Shown: one piece after another, positions 3,891 through 30,578 of the stretch | Layout of the letters: every line of letters starts with the position of its first letter | Position numbering within the stretch: the first letter of the stretch is position 1 | Virus record (IMG/VR): IMGVR_UViG_3300048837_002360 | Coordinates: 1-30,578 of that record | DNA length: 30,578 nucleotides | Direction: 5' to 3' (one strand) | Source of the DNA: a virus | Made by a program: the position numbers and the translations under genes | Notes under the pieces: generated by a model | What the model was told of the DNA's origin: nothing | The model's input: the letters and a program-made list of their open reading frames with translations, nothing else | Database searches by the model: none

Positions 3891-6116
3891 TTACGCCTCA
3901 CCCTTCGCTTTCACGCCGCCACGCGGGTCCTGCAGGGCGACGCCGAAGTCGTGGTAGCCACGCATCTGCACGCCCAGCACGTTAAAGTCCGCCTCGGTGG
4001 TCTCGATCGTGGGCGACTCCTGGCCGTTAAGGAAAGCGGTCTCGATCACCGGCAGGTCGTTGGGGTCCGACAGCAGGTACCAGGCCTTGCTGCTGCCCCC
4101 GGAATAGGTGTTGTTGGCGAGGTAGCGGCTGACCTCAACGCGGAACTTGCCCTGGTGCGGGTTGGCGACCGGATACTTCGTGCTCGCGGTGGTGTCGCGG
4201 ATCTCCAGCGACTTCCAGAGCGTGGTGGCGACGGCGCTGAGCGCCGTGGGCACCAGCAGGACCGCCGGCATGATCCCGATCGGCTTGCCGTCGGAATCGA
4301 CCTGGTCCATGAAGGCCGTCTCGCCGGAGGTCAAACCGTCGATCGACAGCGCCGTGGCCGCGCCGCTGATGTAGTTCTTGCCCCCGGAAGTAAAGAACGC
4401 AGCGTTATTCAGGAACGTGGTCCAGAACACGTCGTTGATCTTCAGGCCCGAGCCACGCCCGAGCTTCCGCGGCACCGTGGTGATGGCGCCCAAGTCATCG
4501 TTGATGATGTCACGCCGGTCGATGGATAACAGCAACCCGTACGTGTCGGCCTTGTTCGAGTACTGCTCCTCGCCGAGCGAGCCGTGCTTGAGTTCACCGC
4601 CGGGAGCGACCTTCTCGTACTGGTCCTTGCCGATCAGGCGGTAGCTGGTGACGGTCTTGAAGTCGCTGACGTTACGGATCGCGGTGATGTTCCGCCAGGT
4701 CCGCTCGACGCTGAAAAAGCCCTCGAGCAGGAACTTGTTGGCCACGTTGGACAGGATCCCGCCGACATCGACCGTCGAGAACGCCGCCTCTACGTTCCCA
4801 CCGTGGGTGCCGAACGCGTGGCGCAGCACACTCCGGGGGTCGCGGAAGTTGCGGCCGGTGTAGCCGTTGGCCCACGCCGCCTCCAGCAGCAGTTCCTGCA
4901 GGCCGATCCCGCCACGATACCGCTTGCTCGCGGCGTCGAGCGTCCGCTCATCGTAGAGCTTCTCGACGTCGCCGAGCTTGGCGGTCAGCATGCACGCGGC
5001 CTCGAGCACCTGGCCGCTGTTGCGGTCGCTGTCGTTGGAACCCCGCGTCTGGACCATCGGGGCCTTGGGCCGCGAGGCGCGCAGGACTTCCAGCTCGGTG
5101 CGCGTGGCGTCCCAGCCCGACTCGATGGCCTGGGCCTCGACCCCCGGAAACTTGCCATCGCAGATCTTGCGGACGGCCTCGATCCGCCGCGACTCGGCCG
5201 CCACACGCTGACGCATCTGCATTACAGGGTCCTCGTCAGTGTTATGCGTGGAAGCGCCCGTCGTATCAGTGGTTTGTGCCGCGACCTGCGTGTGATTCGA
5301 TTGTGTGGTGTTTGGCGTTTGCGAATCGCCGGGTTTTTCCGCCGCGGGTCGGGCAGTCACGGCCGCCGTGTTGTTGTTTGAATTACCGTGGTCACCGGCG
5401 GGCGCCTGGTTCGTTGCGCCCTGAGCGGCGTTGCCCGTGGTCGCAGGTTGATCCGTGGAACCCGCGGGGTCGGTGGTGGTCGTGTGGCTGGTATCGGTGC
5501 CGGGCGATGTGTCGCTAGACATAGAGGTCTGCTCCTGCGGGGTGTTGTGATCGGGGTTACGTTGGGCGGCGACGCGGGCGCTGGTGTTCGCATCGGCGCC
5601 GCTATCGACGAACGAGATCTCTTTGAGGACGGCCTTGCGGACCACGTGCAGCGGGCCGTCGAAGGTCCGGCCGTTGACGCTGACGCGGTGGCCGTTGGGC
5701 ACGAACTCGGCATCGACGACCGCGGCGCCGATGCTCGCCTGCCACGGGAAGCCGTTGGCCGCGCTCTTGGCCACGTCCCGCGCCCACGAGGTGTCGCGGC
5801 TGATCAGGCCCTCGGCGATGACGGCCCCGTTTTCAACGACGACGCGCTGCGTGTGCCCGACGCCCTGGCGCGCGTTATGGTCCAGCCGCACCGGGATGTC
5901 CTGCCGCTCGATCGACAGGCCCTCAAGGTCGACCACCACCGGGTGCGGGAAGCCGCTGATCCGCATCGTGCCGCCGGTGTAGGCGACCATCCGGAAGGTG
6001 GGGGTCCCCCCGGAAGATTTGTCCGACGCGCCGGTCGCCTCGAAGGTCAGCGGGCAGCGGAAGGTGAGGTAATCAGGCTGCGCGTTGTTCTTCTGCGGGT
6101 TTGCTTTCGGTGACAT
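3891..6116 (-). CDS. Prohead protease/major capsid protein fusion
   Basis: This single 741-residue protein joins two head-assembly functions. Residues 1-190 are a prohead serine protease domain with the likely catalytic His80 (RLDHN) and Ser128 (WQASIGA). Residues about 190-300 are a low-complexity Thr/Asn/Gln/Ser/Pro linker. The rest matches gpT/HK97-type major capsid proteins (LLEAAWANGYTGRNF, GGILSNVANKFLLEGF, and a C-terminal GVQMRGYHDFGVALQDPRGG). In most HK97-like phages these are separate genes, but this fusion is a recognised annotation class. The protease presumably cleaves the linker or delta region during maturation. It overlaps the end of the portal gene by 44 bases. Copies of the CCCCCGGAAG motif occur in both the protease and capsid parts. 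Confidence 0.88.
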   Translation of the reverse strand: MSPKANPQKNNAQPDYLTFRCPLTFEATGASDKSSGGTPTFRMVAYTGGTMRISGFPHPVVVDLEGLSIERQDIPVRLDHNARQGVGHTQRVVVENGAVIAEGLISRDTSWARDVAKSAANGFPWQASIGAAVVDAEFVPNGHRVSVNGRTFDGPLHVVRKAVLKEISFVDSGADANTSARVAAQRNPDHNTPQEQTSMSSDTSPGTDTSHTTTTDPAGSTDQPATTGNAAQGATNQAPAGDHGNSNNNTAAVTARPAAEKPGDSQTPNTTQSNHTQVAAQTTDTTGASTHNTDEDPVMQMRQRVAAESRRIEAVRKICDGKFPGVEAQAIESGWDATRTELEVLRASRPKAPMVQTRGSNDSDRNSGQVLEAACMLTAKLGDVEKLYDERTLDAASKRYRGGIGLQELLLEAAWANGYTGRNFRDPRSVLRHAFGTHGGNVEAAFSTVDVGGILSNVANKFLLEGFFSVERTWRNITAIRNVSDFKTVTSYRLIGKDQYEKVAPGGELKHGSLGEEQYSNKADTYGLLLSIDRRDIINDDLGAITTVPRKLGRGSGLKINDVFWTTFLNNAAFFTSGGKNYISGAATALSIDGLTSGETAFMDQVDSDGKPIGIMPAVLLVPTALSAVATTLWKSLEIRDTTASTKYPVANPHQGKFRVEVSRYLANNTYSGGSSKAWYLLSDPNDLPVIETAFLNGQESPTIETTEADFNVLGVQMRGYHDFGVALQDPRGGVKAKGEA

Positions 6117-20983: not shown

Positions 20984-20987
<4 letters not shown>
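20049..20987 (+). CDS. PGN_0703-like PD-(D/E)XK nuclease on the opposite strand
   Basis: This roughly 312-residue protein contains FKRRCRLLQSWYRVEILKI, NFISPEAFAYAKQRVEDKKDNPDLTIEEFRLFNNMLSSMPMCFNLF and a nuclease core WDAAIFYADPAGKPGLVSIETKY. The core gives the D...ExK triad Asp159, Glu177 and Lys179, counted from the ATG at 20049. This matches my knowledge of PGN_0703-like putative restriction endonucleases. No strong ribosome binding site marks the start; ATG 20040 and 19980 are alternatives. It is the only plus-strand gene in the replication region. It is divergent from the primase and its stop overlaps the helicase stop by four bases, so it looks like a later insertion, probably a defence gene or moron. 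Confidence 0.65.
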
Positions 20988-23733
<2,746 letters not shown>

Positions 23734-23737
<4 letters not shown>

Positions 23738-24516
23738 GCGGCCACCTCCGTCCCGTCGGGCAGGATGCAGCGATCGTCTAGGATCGGGATGGTGTAGAGC
23801 GTGTCGCTGCGCCGGCCGAGGTAGCCGAGGATGAAGCCGTTGACCCACTCGACCGGACGGCCGGTGCCGTACAGCGGGATCGGCTTACAAAGACAGCCGC
23901 CGCTACGGGCCTGGACGACCTGGCCCGGGGACCAAATGTTCTGGATGATGCTCGAGTCGGCGCGGTGGGTGTGCCCGTGGATGACGCTCTTGCCCTGGCT
24001 GATCTGTAGGTGGTTCTTGGTGGCGTGGCGGGCATACGACCAGCCGTGCACGGCGATGATGCGCGAATTGACCGCGTAGTGCGGGTAGCGCGCCGTGGCC
24101 GAGCCGTAGGGCACGTAGGTGAACTTCGACCGGCCCTTGCTCAGTTGGATGCGCGGCGCCAGCAACGAGTACGCGCCACGCCCCTCGCTGGTCAGCGCCG
24201 CCCAGCGGTCCAGGCGGTACTCGTGATTACCTTCGACCATGACGAGCCTGTCGCAGCAGGCCTGCACGCGGTCGAGCAGCGCGTTGGCCGTCTTGAGGTC
24301 GTCCTGGTAGTCGGTCTCGGGCACGCCGTACGTGGGCGGGTGCGAGGAGAACTGCCCGCAGTCCAGCAGGTCGCCCAGGCACACGATCAGGTCGGGCTTG
24401 ATCCGTTCGGCCGCGCGGCAGAACACCTCCACCGCCTGAGGGTTCTGGTGCGGGATGTGCACGTCGCCGAAGGCCAGCATGGTCCTGGCCTTGGTTGGTT
24501 TCGAGCGATTGGCCAT
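23734..24516 (-). CDS. Calcineurin-like metallophosphoesterase
   Basis: This 260-residue protein carries the dinuclear-metal motifs GDVH (17-20), GDLLD (48-52), GNHE (96-99) and, near the C-terminus, HGHTH. The family comprises DNA exonucleases, phosphatases and phosphodiesterases; Mre11/SbcD-like or phage-type substrates are possible. The start is ATG 24516, overlapping the upstream stop as TGATG, with GGGGGAAG upstream. The downstream helicase start overlaps its stop as GTGA, so the two are translationally coupled. The nuclease or phosphatase role is not decided by sequence alone. Confidence 0.88.
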
Positions 24517-25858: not shown

Positions 25859-26356
25859 TCACCGCTTCCAGGGCGGTGTGTTGTCAGTAGCTGGTGCCTG
25901 GGTACCGCCCCCGGAAGACACTCCGGTACTCGCCGTTGCCTGCGCCCGACCTCCGGGGGCCGACTTGGCCTCGAAGCCCTTGATCTCGTTGATCAGCTCG
26001 TCGTTGTCGCTGCGCTTCTTGACCTTGACGTTGATGACCAGCGGCAGGTTGTGCAGCTCGACGCTGTCGCGCGGCTGCATCACACCGACCGCGTGACAGA
26101 TCGCCGACAGTTCGCCCCGGGCGATCTTGACCGCCGTGGCGTTCGGGTTATTCAGATTGAGCCGGGCCCAGAGCGTGCGCCCTTGGTACTCGCCTTCAAG
26201 AACCGTGAACGTCAGCTCGAGGTAGCTACCCTGACCGTTCTTGGTCGGCTTCATCTCAGAGGCGGTGATCGCCGCCAGGTAATTGCCCGCGGGGATAGGA
26301 TCGAAGCCGGTGTTCGGGTCCACGTCGTGCGCATTGAATCCGTTGAGATTCGCCAT
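25859..26356 (-). CDS. DUF669-family single-stranded DNA-binding protein
   Basis: This 165-residue protein starts MANLNGFNAHDVDPNTGFDPIPAGNYLAAI and continues SEMKPTKNGQGSYLELTFTVLEGEYQGRTLWARLNL, the DUF669 pattern. The family includes phage SSB-like proteins. The C-terminus is a flexible Gly/Ala/Ser tail ending NTPPWKR. AGGAG lies upstream, inside the end of the ATPase gene. The nucleotides for SSGGG in the tail contain an exact CTTCCGGGGG copy (minus strand). It pairs functionally with the recombinase-type ATPase next to it. Confidence 0.85.
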   Translation of the reverse strand: MANLNGFNAHDVDPNTGFDPIPAGNYLAAITASEMKPTKNGQGSYLELTFTVLEGEYQGRTLWARLNLNNPNATAVKIARGELSAICHAVGVMQPRDSVELHNLPLVINVKVKKRSDNDELINEIKGFEAKSAPGGRAQATASTGVSSGGGTQAPATDNTPPWKR

Positions 26357-26359
26357 GAC

Positions 26360-27187
26360 TCAGTTCTCCTGGTTGGTTGCTTTGGGGCCGACGAAGCCGA
26401 TGACGGCCGGCGGTTCGATTTTCTTCTCGGGCTCAGGCTTGGAGTTGGAAGGGGTCGGGTGGGTTCGGCTCTTCGAGAAGTTCAGGCCCTCTACGAGTGC
26501 GGGCCAGGACAGCGGCACCTCCGTGGGCAGGCCGTAGCGGTTCTTCGCCAGAATGACGTTGGTGCCCTCGGTAAGCAGCACACGCTGGTTGCCGTCGCGG
26601 CGCGCGTACAGTACGCAGTCGGCCCATTCGATAAACGGCGGCGCGATCCAGTGCGGCAGGTCGGGGGACGCGAGATACTGATCGAACCCCTCGGGCGTCG
26701 TCAGTTTGGTGTTGGCCGCGTGGGCCAGGAGGATGATGGCTGCGCCCGTGTCGGCGATGGCATTGAGCATCGGCAGCAGATCGCGGTAGACGATGTTGGC
26801 GACGATTTCTCGTGCTTTGAAGTACCCGCCGTGGGCGGTGCCCAGCGTGTTGGTGATGTCGTTGGGCGATTTACCATCAAGGTCCAGGACCACGTGCTCG
26901 ACGATTCGCTGGACCATCCAGTCGATGGTGTCGATGGCCAGGGCCTGGGGCGCGTCGGACTTGTCCAGGCTCGCTAACTCGCTGAGCCACTGGCGTATCT
27001 GCGGCCAGGACTTCAGGTACGGCGTGCGGATGAGCCCCGGCACGGCGCCGGCGCCGTTCTCACAGTCAAGCAACACCGCGTTGGCCGAGGCCGCGAAGGT
27101 TGTCTTCCCGACACCCGGCTGGCCGTAGACGATCATCTTGGGCGGTGCGGGGGAGGTGCTCTTGATCAGCGAGTTCATCAGGGCCAT
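26360..27187 (-). CDS. RecA-like ATPase (Sak4/AAA_24-type)
   Basis: This 275-residue protein has Walker A GQPGVGKTT (22-30), a Walker B-like strand near residue 85 (ALAIDTID) and a downstream AAIILLAHA strand. This fits the phage Sak4/AAA_24 single-domain recombinase or ATPase group, which cooperates with SSB proteins in annealing or strand exchange. ATG 27187 has AAGGAA eight bases upstream; longer forms toward 27379 run through the tRNA-like element. A Pro/Lys/Glu-rich tail follows the core. The next gene encodes the DUF669 SSB. Confidence 0.82.
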   Translation of the reverse strand: MALMNSLIKSTSPAPPKMIVYGQPGVGKTTFAASANAVLLDCENGAGAVPGLIRTPYLKSWPQIRQWLSELASLDKSDAPQALAIDTIDWMVQRIVEHVVLDLDGKSPNDITNTLGTAHGGYFKAREIVANIVYRDLLPMLNAIADTGAAIILLAHAANTKLTTPEGFDQYLASPDLPHWIAPPFIEWADCVLYARRDGNQRVLLTEGTNVILAKNRYGLPTEVPLSWPALVEGLNFSKSRTHPTPSNSKPEPEKKIEPPAVIGFVGPKATNQEN

Positions 27188-27242
27188 GGGTTTGTTCCTT
27201 CGTGCGGCCTCGTAGGCCTGTTGTTCGTTGCCGACGGTCAAA

Positions 27243-27334
27243 GGCAGCCGCGGGAGTCGAACCCGCACCCCCCCGGAAGTTCGCGCAAGTGGCGATTCTC
27301 GAGGGGGCCCCACTCCGGGGGCGGGGGGGCTGCC
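27243..27334 (-). pseudogene. Degenerate tRNA-Ser(CGA)-like element
   Basis: Read on the minus strand, 92 bases are bounded by the complementary acceptor arms GGCAGCC and GGCTGCC. A perfect T-arm (GCGGG, TTCGACT, CCCGC) lies directly before the 3' arm. The length fits a class II tRNA. A CTCGAGA loop (anticodon CGA) is followed by ATCGCC, but the 5' stem strand that should read GGCGAT is GGCCCC, so the anticodon arm does not form. The D-arm is a poor C-run. Two dispersed-motif-like stretches, CCCCCGGA and TCCGGGGG, pair with each other and disrupt the cloverleaf. It is probably a pseudo-tRNA altered by G/C expansion. The rest of 27188-27408 holds no gene. Confidence 0.5.
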
Positions 27335-27408
27335 GAGGTGCGCCCGGGGGGTGGCCGTCGCGTGTGGTGGACCCGCCACAAGCCGCCCGGGCGCGAAGAG
27401 ATGCTTAT

Positions 27409-28218
27409 TCAGGCCACTTCGAGCACACGGACCCCCTTAAAGCCGGTGGGCCAGTGGTCGTTTGCCCAGCAGTCGCGTAGCCGACGGATCGCCGATTCGT
27501 TTTCACGCTGAGCGATGTCGAGCGTGTCGTCGCCGACGCGCCAGACACCGCAGCGGAAGGGTTCTTTCTTCTCAACGGCGACGAGGTGGACCGGGACCCT
27601 CTCGCCGGCCAGGACTTCACCCAGCACCGCACGATAAAAAGCCATCTGTCGGTGGTAGCCGTACCGCCGGGCATCGGCTTCAAACCAGGTCAGGTCGTCG
27701 CAGGTCTTAAAGTCCACGATGCCGCGGTGCGGATGGACCCAGTCGATCCGGATCTGGCACGGCGTCTGGCAATAGTCGGTGCGGATCACGCCTTCGGAAC
27801 GGCCGTAAAGAAGCAGGTCGACGGCCTCGTCGTTCATGGCCACGCCGCTGGCCATCTGCTCGATCAGGTCTACTTGGTCATGCGACAAGACAGGCTTGCC
27901 CTGCGCATATGCCCACTCGGCGAAGGCCTTCGTGTTCGAACCGAACGGCTTGTTGGTCTTTGGGTTGATCGGGCCGCCGAGAGAGAACTGGGTTTCGTAG
28001 GCGTCGCGGCCTTCGAGGATGCGAACGTGCGCGGCACGGCCGATCAAGTAACTGGGCGAGTCGGTGTCCGCGATTAGGCCAAGCGACTTCTTGCGGTACA
28101 GCCACGGACACTTGATGAAGTCCAGCAACTGGTGACTGCTTAGGTAGCGGCCGGCCTTGCTGTGGTACTCGTCGGCCGGCTCGGCCTCGAAGATATTCAG
28201 GTCAATGCTCAGTTCCAT
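27409..28218 (-). CDS. PD-(D/E)XK exonuclease (RecB/lambda-exonuclease-like)
   Basis: This 269-residue protein has the RecB-type features YLSSHQLLDFIKCPWLYRKK, GRAAHVRILEG (the conserved histidine) and IDWVHPHRGIVDFKTCDD, giving the D...D-x-K core. It resembles PDDEXK-like exonucleases found beside SSB and Sak4-type proteins in phages. It would resect double-strand ends to single strands for annealing. GGACGA precedes the ATG. The 22-bp repeat and a G-run tract lie upstream and may control it. It is the first gene of the recombination-replication run. Confidence 0.85.
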   Translation of the reverse strand: MELSIDLNIFEAEPADEYHSKAGRYLSSHQLLDFIKCPWLYRKKSLGLIADTDSPSYLIGRAAHVRILEGRDAYETQFSLGGPINPKTNKPFGSNTKAFAEWAYAQGKPVLSHDQVDLIEQMASGVAMNDEAVDLLLYGRSEGVIRTDYCQTPCQIRIDWVHPHRGIVDFKTCDDLTWFEADARRYGYHRQMAFYRAVLGEVLAGERVPVHLVAVEKKEPFRCGVWRVGDDTLDIAQRENESAIRRLRDCWANDHWPTGFKGVRVLEVA

Positions 28219-28265
28219 CGTGTGCTTCGTCCTATGTGGCGTTGCCGTGTGCAGTGATCTTCGCG

Positions 28266-28300
28266 ACCCCGGCCCCCGGCCCCCGGCCCCCGCCCCCGTC
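28266..28300. repeat. G/C-run tract upstream of the exonuclease gene
   Basis: The plus strand is a chain of GACCCCGGCCCCCGGCCCCC units ending CGTCCCCGGAG, so the minus strand has at least six G-runs in about 35 bases. It could form a G-quadruplex in the transcript leader of the exonuclease operon. A tiny minus-strand frame of about 31 codons crosses it but is not supported as a gene. Confidence 0.55.
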
Positions 28301-28361
28301 CCCGGAGAGCCTCGAAGGCTTCGGCATCCTTGCCTTGGCCTCCGAGGCCCTCAACGCGTCT

Positions 28362-28383
28362 TCCCCTCTCTGGTTACCTATGC
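28362..28383 (-). promoter_or_regulatory. 22-bp repeat upstream of recombination operon (copy 2)
   Basis: This is identical to 7798-7819. It lies 144 bases before the exonuclease start and 23 bases after the sigma-like gene stop, oriented toward the exonuclease operon. A promoter read by the adjacent sigma-like protein is one possible reading. Confidence 0.5.
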
Positions 28384-28405
28384 AAACCGGCGCAGGCCGT
28401 CCCGA

Positions 28406-28987
28406 TTAAGCGCGTCCGAGGCCGGCTTTCTCGAACTCTCTGCGCAGGCGGTCACGGGCGTTGGTGACCTGCCGCCACGAGACGCCTCGCATGCGCGCGG
28501 TCGCCTTCAGGCCGTGTTTGGCGATGCTCAGGAGCAGGTCGCGGTCGTCGGGATCGAGCTTGGACATCACGAACTCGACCGCTTCACGCAGTTCGAGCAG
28601 CTCTGTGTCAGACTTGTGGTACGTCTGAGTGCGGCGCTGGCCGTCGTCTTCTAGCAGCACGTGGCCGAGGTGGGTGGTCTCGTCCTCGTGCTCGACCATC
28701 GTGCGTTCAAGAGAGACAGCTTTTTTGTCTTCGCGCCGCTTGAGGCAGTCATGGTGGCGCAGCTGCATCGCCACCCAGGTGTTGACCAACTGGGTGACGA
28801 ACGCTTCGAGGTTGCCGCGCTGCGGGTCGAACAGGTGCGCCTTCTCCAGCAGGTGCAGGCGCATACCCTGCCGCATATCGTCGTAGTCTGAGTACGAGAA
28901 ATCCGTCCGCCGGCAGAGCTGGCGGGCTTTGATGTGGATGAGGGTTTGTGTATAGGTGGCGGCAAGCAGGTCGTGGTTTTGCGTCAT
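28406..28987 (-). CDS. Sigma-70-like (region 2/region 4) transcription factor
   Basis: This 193-residue protein has a helical first part, SYSDYDDMRQGMRLHLLEKAHLFDPQRGNLEAFVTQLVNTWV, resembling sigma region 2. The C-terminal helix-turn-helix (DRDLLLSIAKHGLKATARMRGVSWRQVTNARDRLRREF) resembles region 4. ATG 28987 has GGAGA at the right spacing. The two 22-bp repeats upstream of other phage operons could be its targets, but no experiment supports this. Phage-encoded sigma-like factors often switch on late or middle genes. Confidence 0.68.
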   Translation of the reverse strand: MTQNHDLLAATYTQTLIHIKARQLCRRTDFSYSDYDDMRQGMRLHLLEKAHLFDPQRGNLEAFVTQLVNTWVAMQLRHHDCLKRREDKKAVSLERTMVEHEDETTHLGHVLLEDDGQRRTQTYHKSDTELLELREAVEFVMSKLDPDDRDLLLSIAKHGLKATARMRGVSWRQVTNARDRLRREFEKAGLGRA

Positions 28988-29061
28988 GGCGTGTCTCCGT
29001 GCCGTGGGCGGAGACCGCGATGGGTGCAGACCAGATGCGCAAACCGATAACACCGACACAA

Positions 29062-29125
29062 AAGCGGAGCGTTGTGTTGCGCCTTGCCCCGATGGGGCTG
29101 GCTGCACCCACAACGACCTCCGCTT
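29062..29125. repeat. Long imperfect inverted repeat with nested hairpin
   Basis: The arms AAGCGGAGCGTTGTG (29062-29076) and CACAACG-AC-CTCCGCTT (29109-29125) pair over 15 bases with one two-base bulge. Inside lies a second hairpin, GCCCC (29086-29090) with GGGGC (29094-29098) around GAT. No gene covers the interval 28988-29165. It could be a regulator site or a structured leader for the sigma-like gene. Confidence 0.65.
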
Positions 29126-29165
29126 GGCGGTCAGTGCGTTATCTGGTGAATGAAAAAGTTGTTCG

Positions 29166-29582
29166 TTACGGCATACGGGGCGTCAGCCCGGCTTCGACGG
29201 TTGGGTGCTCTACTAATCCGGGGTAATCCAGGGGTATCCGGGTATTCCGGGGGGGGCAGGGTGTGGTGATGCTCATCCGAGTCGGCAGGCCGTGGGCAAC
29301 GACGATGGACTCGACACGGCCGTGTCCGAGCTGACCCATGCGGCGTAGCAGGCAACGCACCTGCGCCTTAAGCGCGTAGTCCGTGGCGATCGCGATCCCG
29401 CCATCCTCGGCGTCCTCGTGTTCGAGCTTGAACTCGCGGACGACCCGGGGCGGCGGCGAAAAGACCGGCTGGCCGGCCTGAACGATTAACTGCTCGATCC
29501 GCCCGAAGCCGATCTCGCTCATCAGGTCCACCAGCTCACGCTGGGCCCGCCGCAGTTGCCGGTACCGCAGTTCAGTGCCCAC
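29166..29582 (-). CDS. Phage protein with an internal duplicated motif, function unknown
   Basis: This roughly 138-residue protein starts at GTG 29582, overlapping the HTH gene by 11 bases, with AAGGGG upstream. Two related segments occur: MSEIGFGRIEQLIVQAGQPVF and MGQLGHGRVESIVVAHGLPTRM, sharing the pattern GxGRxExxVxxGxP. Each is preceded by a helix (RAQRELVDL, KAQVRCLLRR), so the protein seems built from two copies of one unit. The C-terminal tail (PRNTRIPLDYPGLVEHPT) is encoded by TATCCGGGG-like tandem repeats. No family is recognised. Confidence 0.6.
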   Translation of the reverse strand: MGTELRYRQLRRAQRELVDLMSEIGFGRIEQLIVQAGQPVFSPPPRVVREFKLEHEDAEDGGIAIATDYALKAQVRCLLRRMGQLGHGRVESIVVAHGLPTRMSITTPCPPRNTRIPLDYPGLVEHPTVEAGLTPRMP

Positions 29583-29807: not shown

Positions 29808-29914
29808 TTGACTTGTTTGGTATATGTTCGGTATCATAATGCGAGAATGTGCGGACGCAAGGGGCCTAATCGATAAAAATGAATGACTTGTGCAGGCACG
29901 TGCACTCTGGTGCA
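29808..29914 (+). promoter_or_regulatory. Repressor promoter and operator candidates
   Basis: TTGACT (29808-29813) and TATCAT (29832-29837) form a -35/-10 pair with an 18-base spacer, facing the repressor gene. The direct repeats GGTAT flank the spacer. Downstream, GTGCA (29890-29894) and TGCAC (29901-29905) form an inverted repeat with a six-base spacer, and a further GTGCA is at 29910-29914. These may be operator half-sites for autoregulation. The opposite strand presumably carries the HTH gene promoter. Confidence 0.55.
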
Positions 29915-29930
29915 GAAAGGGGCAAAGAAA

Positions 29931-30578
29931 ATGTCACCGATCGGCGAGACCATCAAACGCCTCCGCGAGGAACGGGGCTGGACGCAGGCCGAACTCGGTC
30001 AGCGCGTGGGTGTTGATGGCACCAACATCGCGCGCCGGGAGACCGGCCGAACACGTGTGAAAGCCGACGAACGTTTCCGTTTCGCCAATGCGTTCGGGAT
30101 GAGCGTGGTCGAGTTCGACGAACACTGGCGAACTTGGGGGATTACCCGTACGCGGGGCGATGCCGGCATCCCGATCATCAACCGGGCACCGGCCGGCGAA
30201 GTGATCGACTACGAAGAATACGGCGTCGATTCCGGCCAGGGATTTGAGTACGTCGACCGGGGTGATATTCAGGACGAGCTGGCGTTCGGCGTGATCGTGG
30301 TGGGGGACTCGATGGAGCCCCGGCTAACCGAGGGCGACTATCTGATCCTCAGCTACTGCGACCCGTACCGTGACGACGGGAAGCTGACCCCGGGCAAGAT
30401 CGTCTTTGTGCGATTCGCCGAAGACTGGCGCGGCGGGTGTACGCTGGCGAGGTTCTTCCTGGAGGAGGATGGGCGGATCCGGCTTCAGAAGGATAATCCC
30501 GCGTATGCGCCGATCGTTTGCGATCGTAGAGAACTTCAGAGCGTCGCGGTGGCTATTGAACGTCGGGAAAAGCTGTAA
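29931..30578 (+). CDS. XRE-S24 (CI/LexA-type) phage repressor, apparently lacking the catalytic lysine
   Basis: This 215-residue protein has an N-terminal XRE helix-turn-helix (IGETIKRLREERGWTQAELGQRVGVDGTNIARRETGR) and a C-terminal S24 peptidase-like domain. The nucleophile is Ser127 (VVGDSMEP) and the likely cleavage pair is Ala88-Gly89 (RAPAGE). At the place of the catalytic lysine, where LexA has VTVKRL, the sequence reads CTLARF, so residue 173 is alanine. This predicts impaired RecA-assisted autocleavage. ATG 29931 has AAGGGG upstream. It is the only plus-strand gene of the right end and would maintain lysogeny by blocking the divergent HTH gene. The stop codon coincides with the end of the window. 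Confidence 0.85.
   Translation: MSPIGETIKRLREERGWTQAELGQRVGVDGTNIARRETGRTRVKADERFRFANAFGMSVVEFDEHWRTWGITRTRGDAGIPIINRAPAGEVIDYEEYGVDSGQGFEYVDRGDIQDELAFGVIVVGDSMEPRLTEGDYLILSYCDPYRDDGKLTPGKIVFVRFAEDWRGGCTLARFFLEEDGRIRLQKDNPAYAPIVCDRRELQSVAVAIERREKL

Follow-up and report, generated by a model that had tools for sequence, protein, structure and literature searches.

A conserved tRNA-like RNA family in the recombination operons of phages, proposed to mimic substrates of RNase P and RNase Z

A 92-nt tRNA-like element, defined by a covariance-model match and a predicted fold, is encoded on the minus strand (27334-27243) of a 30,578-base virus record (the whole stretch analysed, hereafter the window). 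It belongs to an RNA family of phages and prophages, mostly of Planctomycetota, that lies between the genes for a RecE-like exonuclease and a Sak4-like single-strand annealing protein. The family is conserved and covarying, keeps its place and strand, and varies freely in its middle arm. Because the parts that are kept are those read by RNase P and RNase Z, we propose, at a probability of roughly 55%, that these RNAs are phage tRNA mimics recognised by both enzymes and excised from the messenger RNA of the recombination operon.

All parts of the element lie on the minus strand. The 5′ acceptor arm GGCAGCC (27328-27334) forms 7 bp with the 3′ acceptor arm GGCTGCC (27243-27249) at pair probabilities of 0.98-1.0, and a discriminator base, T, follows at 27242. 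The T arm, GCGGG TTCGACT CCCGC (27250-27266), has 5 bp with pair probabilities of 1.0 and is also matched by model R2, described below. Both arms had been recognised in the original prediction, and a 7-bp acceptor combined with a 5-bp T arm and a TTCRA loop occurs once in the window and in 0 of 200 dinucleotide shuffles; chance does not explain the element, and it is real. The anticodon and D arms, which had been taken as unpaired, both pair in another register. A 6-bp D-like hairpin at 27308-27326 (pair probabilities 0.70-0.91, with alignments to relatives) carries a GG doublet at 27316-27315, matching one kept in all 45 members compared, and a long hairpin at 27268-27307 (probabilities mostly >0.9, with an alignment to loci L015 and L165) replaces the anticodon arm. 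The window copy is thus predicted to be a full cloverleaf, with a middle hairpin lengthened by paired runs of C and G and without a 7-nt anticodon loop. The CTCGAGA once read as a CGA-type anticodon loop falls inside the paired middle stem, and L015 and L165 likewise have no 7-nt loop there. The window copy also forms pair 7:66, which is mismatched in most members. The folding energy (z −1.29 alone, −2.37 with flanks) is ordinary for such G+C-rich sequence, so the evidence for the element is comparative.

Two specific tRNA identities were considered and rejected. A decoding class II tRNA-Ser would carry its Ser anticodon in a 7-nt loop closed by a 5-bp stem. This is absent here, and no gene finder called such a tRNA; the original assignment to serine also disagrees with the anticodon-like loops of relatives, which are mostly CAU. 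Among the weak Rfam matches the best was tRNA-Sec (17.1 bits, threshold 47), but its 13-bp acceptor plus T domain differs from the 7 + 5 bp found here, and the UCA loop is absent.

The genes around the element, all on the minus strand, run in the order exonuclease, a second structured RNA (element A), tRNA-like RNA, Sak4 and a single-strand DNA-binding-like (SSB-like) protein. The RecE-like exonuclease (27409-28218) has a DUF3799 domain (Pfam PF12684; PHROG 412, exonuclease VIII), the Sak4-like protein (26360-27187) matches PF13479 and PHROG 124, and the SSB-like DUF669 protein (25859-26356) matches PF05037 and PHROG 6015. The Sak4-like gene starts with ATG at 27187-27185, 54 bases past the discriminator base of the element, with AAGGA at 27200-27196. 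A scan for sigma-70-like promoters found none in 26300-29300. Divergent from the operon, a LexA/CI-like regulator with HTH and peptidase S24 domains occupies 29883-30578 on the plus strand, and a minus-strand helicase gene (20984-23848) has internal Hint and LAGLIDADG matches and is likely to carry an intein with a homing endonuclease. Five nucleotides upstream of the tRNA-like element, element A (27340-27394) has a variable core enclosed by a stem, GCGCCCGGG/CCCGGGCGC, and relatives have one at the same position; it has no meaningful match in Rfam. In distant relatives (L226, L234, L240, L241-L303) the core reads GATGGCGTG, a hairpin and GGGACTCCCTGTGCC within a G+C stem, and the copy in the window is a candidate homologue of that form. 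The core pattern occurs in 63 viral stretches, 45 of them adjoining an exonuclease and/or Sak4-like gene and 18 not.

Scanning with the proteins encoded on either side of the element yielded 73 viral loci for one and 46 for the other, and an exonuclease profile gave 80 bacterial-genome loci that were kept, with titles mostly from Planctomycetota and many from Phycisphaerae; blastn of the region against phages and plasmids returned no match. The scans overlap and repeat contigs, and the repeats were dropped for the locus count and the tree. The element is present in the exonuclease-Sak4 gap of 46 of the 141 distinct loci. It is missing from the other 95, including the nearest exonuclease relative, L161 (Planctomycetales bacterium ZRK34), so it is dispensable. 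Where the element occurs its place is nearly invariant: among 58 listed elements, a count in which repeats partly remain, 54 lie downstream of the exonuclease on the same strand, three are at loci without an exonuclease and one is an artefact (L011, value −31, from reading past the true stop codon). At L159 (on the same contig as L107) and L139, which have no exonuclease, the elements are flanked by a sigma-like gene and the Sak4-like gene, indicating that they go with Sak4 and not with the exonuclease.

The same gap holds other structures. A different tRNA-like element, GCGACGG...CCGTCGC, is found there in L030, L031, L091-L094, L181, L183 and L206; it is roughly 115 nt long and combines a T arm with an extended middle region. 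L039 has a tandem pair of tRNA-like elements (5818-5955), the upstream one replacing element A. Downstream of the element, for example in L010, L017, L028 and L082, there is a palindrome or hairpin with a GGCC centre (GCTGGCCAGC) whose arms vary in step from locus to locus. One planctomycete chromosome, CP087563.1, accounts for ten of the 80 kept exonuclease loci (L181, L183, L184, L188, L190, L192, L193, L195, L197 and L199).

Family members take three forms. The commonest, of 64 nt, has no D arm and consists of the acceptor, a short GG linker, a 7-bp stem with a CTCATAA loop, and the T arm. The second has a longer hairpin instead of the loop, and the third, nearest to the window, has a three-pair mini D arm whose loop contains GG. 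Features were counted in 45 distinct members hand-picked from the elements of relatives, the window included; L041, L115, L190, L198, L203, L211 and the upstream L039 element were omitted as weaker or odd. Of the 45, 44 have a full T stem, 43 have acceptor pairs 1-6, 44 have the TTCGA loop and all have the YGG doublet. Unlike in ordinary tRNAs, the 7:66 pair is non-standard in 41. The middle hairpin is variable, and a TCAT loop (CAU) is found in 22.

The stems of the family covary. In the D-armless form (n = 19), 98.5% of cells are paired and 7 of 18 pairs have changed on both sides; the covariation score is 0.252 compared with 0.142 after shuffling, and none of 500 shuffles was as high. Covariation is weaker in the third form (n = 6), in which the score was matched by 6 of 500 shuffles and the number of two-sided pair changes by 107 of 500. 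In pairwise comparisons of canonical members, identity is 86-94% in the element, compared with 46-63% at fourfold-degenerate sites of the exonuclease and 58-69% in the 32 downstream bases, a comparison that is biased toward high identity by its restriction to canonical members. On a 91-row tree of the exonuclease, with types labelled by reading of the sequences and with L041 and L198 kept as carriers, there are at least 16 type changes among carriers and 14 presence changes; sister groups combine the extended form of L143 with the CAU form of L150, and the CAU form of L017 with the D-armed L015 and L165.

A covariance model made from six third-form relatives, with the window held out (R1), scored 40.9 bits at 27334-27242 of the window (E 7e-8, the E-values of both models being rough because of short calibration), and the next best match scored 13.5. 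As controls, ordinary tRNAs scored 13 to 30 bits and the family member L314 scored 36.8. The original prediction had staked the element on homologues in relatives and a covariance score better than random; homologues exist, and this score comes from a model that never contained the window, an outcome that goes against refutation. Model R2, built from the D-armless (canonical) form, matched only a fragment of the window (18.8 bits). Applied to a set of relatives in which repeats partly remain, it gave a full match to the near-identical contig L003, with 27.9 bits. Ordinary tRNAs score about 21-42 bits with R2, so 27.9 bits is within or below their range and R2 alone is insufficient to place the window. 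ARAGORN called no genes in the window, and Rfam gave no matches above gathering in the window or in 14 related loci. In a short-stretch search, L017 scored a borderline 29.4 bits against the Rfam tRNA model, whose threshold is 29.

The original prediction also pointed to a dispersed motif, and CCCCCGGAAG is indeed over-represented, with 12 copies in the window, on both strands, against 0.15 expected; one copy, at 27270-27279 on the plus strand, forms one side of the middle stem. The motif also occurs in several prophage-like loci of CP087563. The suggestion that the element marks a site of motif insertion is weak: L165 already carries the related ACCCGGAAGTT at this position, which makes insertion unnecessary, and the copy could derive from lengthening of a C run instead. 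The element had further been called broken by G/C expansion, which is right about the expansion and wrong about the breakage. Relative to L015 and L165, the gains in the window are of C in one strand of the middle stem and of G in the strand opposite, so that the stem grows on both sides and stays paired.

In the proposed excision, the element would use the retained top half of a tRNA, namely the acceptor stem, the T arm with its TTCGA loop and a GG doublet placed for an elbow, and the decoding half would have been reduced or swapped for a free hairpin. Across the 45 members the anatomy is of the type read by RNase P and RNase Z: acceptor stem, T arm, GG doublet and a free anticodon arm. From a transcript that would span both genes, host RNase P would cut the 5′ end and host RNase Z the 3′ end by tRNA mimicry. 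Cleavage would split the exonuclease message from the Sak4 message, with a possible effect on their expression, and a small stable RNA may be freed. A further reading, possible but less likely than not, is that phages of Planctomycetota evolved a viral counterpart of the human RNA mascRNA, in which a D-armless mimic would use host RNase P and RNase Z to split the operon. The freed RNA, a rapidly varying hairpin on a constant tRNA top half, would then have a role besides, for example as a decoy for enzymes attacking tRNAs.

Phages already provide one RNA of related processing. C4 RNA is an antisense regulator of a phage antirepressor and is not known to be a T-arm cloverleaf within a recombination operon. 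Its precursor, in phages P1 and P7, is reported to be an RNase P substrate in the title of a study cited by PMC4919922. In excerpts on mascRNA and menRNA, both RNase P and RNase Z cut these RNAs, and a reduced D stem-loop carrying two conserved guanosines makes an elbow with the T arm (PMC11693755). As far as those excerpts go, an acceptor stem, a T arm, a reduced D stem-loop with two guanosines and a longer stem replacing the anticodon arm are common to these RNAs and the phage family, and by analogy the GG doublet and T arm of the latter may form an elbow as well. However, mascRNA and menRNA come from the human long noncoding RNAs MALAT1 and MEN beta, whereas the family lies between two genes in phage operons, and homology is not detectable with the Rfam mascRNA model (14-15 bits against a threshold of 42.5). 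Model hairpins of an acceptor stem, T stem and T loop are also cleaved by RNase P, in the part of that study available to us (PMC11143913). D-armless mitochondrial tRNAs, such as nematode tRNA-Ser, resemble the family in lacking the D arm, according to an extract (PMC7609411), but they decode, whereas the family has an unconserved anticodon loop on a viral scaffold. Ordinary phage tRNA(CAU) has the same T arm and acceptor 3′ strand, and the 3′ pattern of the family was found in 44 family stretches and in nine outside the gap that we read as CAU-type tRNAs. These ordinary tRNAs have D arms and normal anticodon stems, unlike the family, and are its likely ancestor.

Several other readings of the same features were weighed. 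That the family represents decaying, functionless phage tRNAs, as the original prediction had offered, would fit the lack of an ARAGORN call in the window, the sub-threshold Rfam matches and the absence of the element from L161. Yet the half read by processing enzymes is kept while the decoding half varies, so that decay is probably not the right account of the element: almost all members have intact stems, the window copy retains its 7-bp acceptor and T arm and forms pair 7:66, and covariation, a fixed place and conservation far above that of fourfold-degenerate sites all speak for function. We regard decay as improbable, and a tRNA pseudogene is rejected on the same retained stem constraint. 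The other option that had been raised, a tRNA-like RNA with a new role, agrees with a family that is conserved, covaries and keeps its place. A working minimal tRNA, D-armless, Met-like with a CAU anticodon, charged and used in translation, from which the window copy has diverged, is slightly less improbable. ARAGORN calls tRNA-Met in many relatives, L017 narrowly passes the Rfam tRNA threshold, and G1-G2-C3 with A73 are Met-type identity bases. The CAU loop is well kept in the members that have it, which may point to a function as an anticodon there. Against translation stand the 23 of 45 members that have no TCAT loop though the rest of the scaffold is kept, the missing D arm, an anticodon stem of 7 bp or longer, the repeated switches of type on the tree and the window copy itself, with no 7-nt anticodon loop.

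A freed RNA might also present a tRNA elbow, or a loop resembling an anticodon, to host enzymes such as anticodon nucleases that attack tRNAs or modify them, and so spare real tRNAs during infection. The differences in loop sequence and stem length between close relatives (L143/L150, L084/L126) on a constant scaffold resemble an arms race, but such a decoy needs no position inside a single operon, and we consider it unlikely, if marginally less so than the two tRNA readings. Least probable by far is that the element acts at the level of DNA, for instance as an attachment site with a piece of a host tRNA gene. Phage att sites often hold 3′ pieces of tRNA genes, in the excerpt consulted (PMC9897764), but the 5′ half of the element is present and covaries. 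Moreover, its 3′ 23-mer (at most two mismatches), sought in 11 host genomes, occurred only at the element itself, in seven of them; with no 3′ identity to a host tRNA gene in these 11 genomes, an attachment site was rejected.

Most tRNA-like RNAs known to act outside translation come from eukaryotes and plant viruses. In titles and abstract openings, with few subscription journals covered, the literature gave no description of a phage or D-armless family like this one. We rate the family as a new addition to a known kind, the tRNA-like RNAs; at gathering, Rfam offers no matching family for the window or the 14 relatives searched, apart from the borderline tRNA match of L017. Low-scoring 'tRNA-Met' calls in such phages may accordingly not be tRNAs and should be treated with caution. 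A covarying, single-place family of bacterial viruses in which the half recognised by enzymes is fixed and the decoding half is free offers simple targets for tests. If the proposed excision is true, it would mean that phages use tRNA-processing enzymes to organise their own messages.
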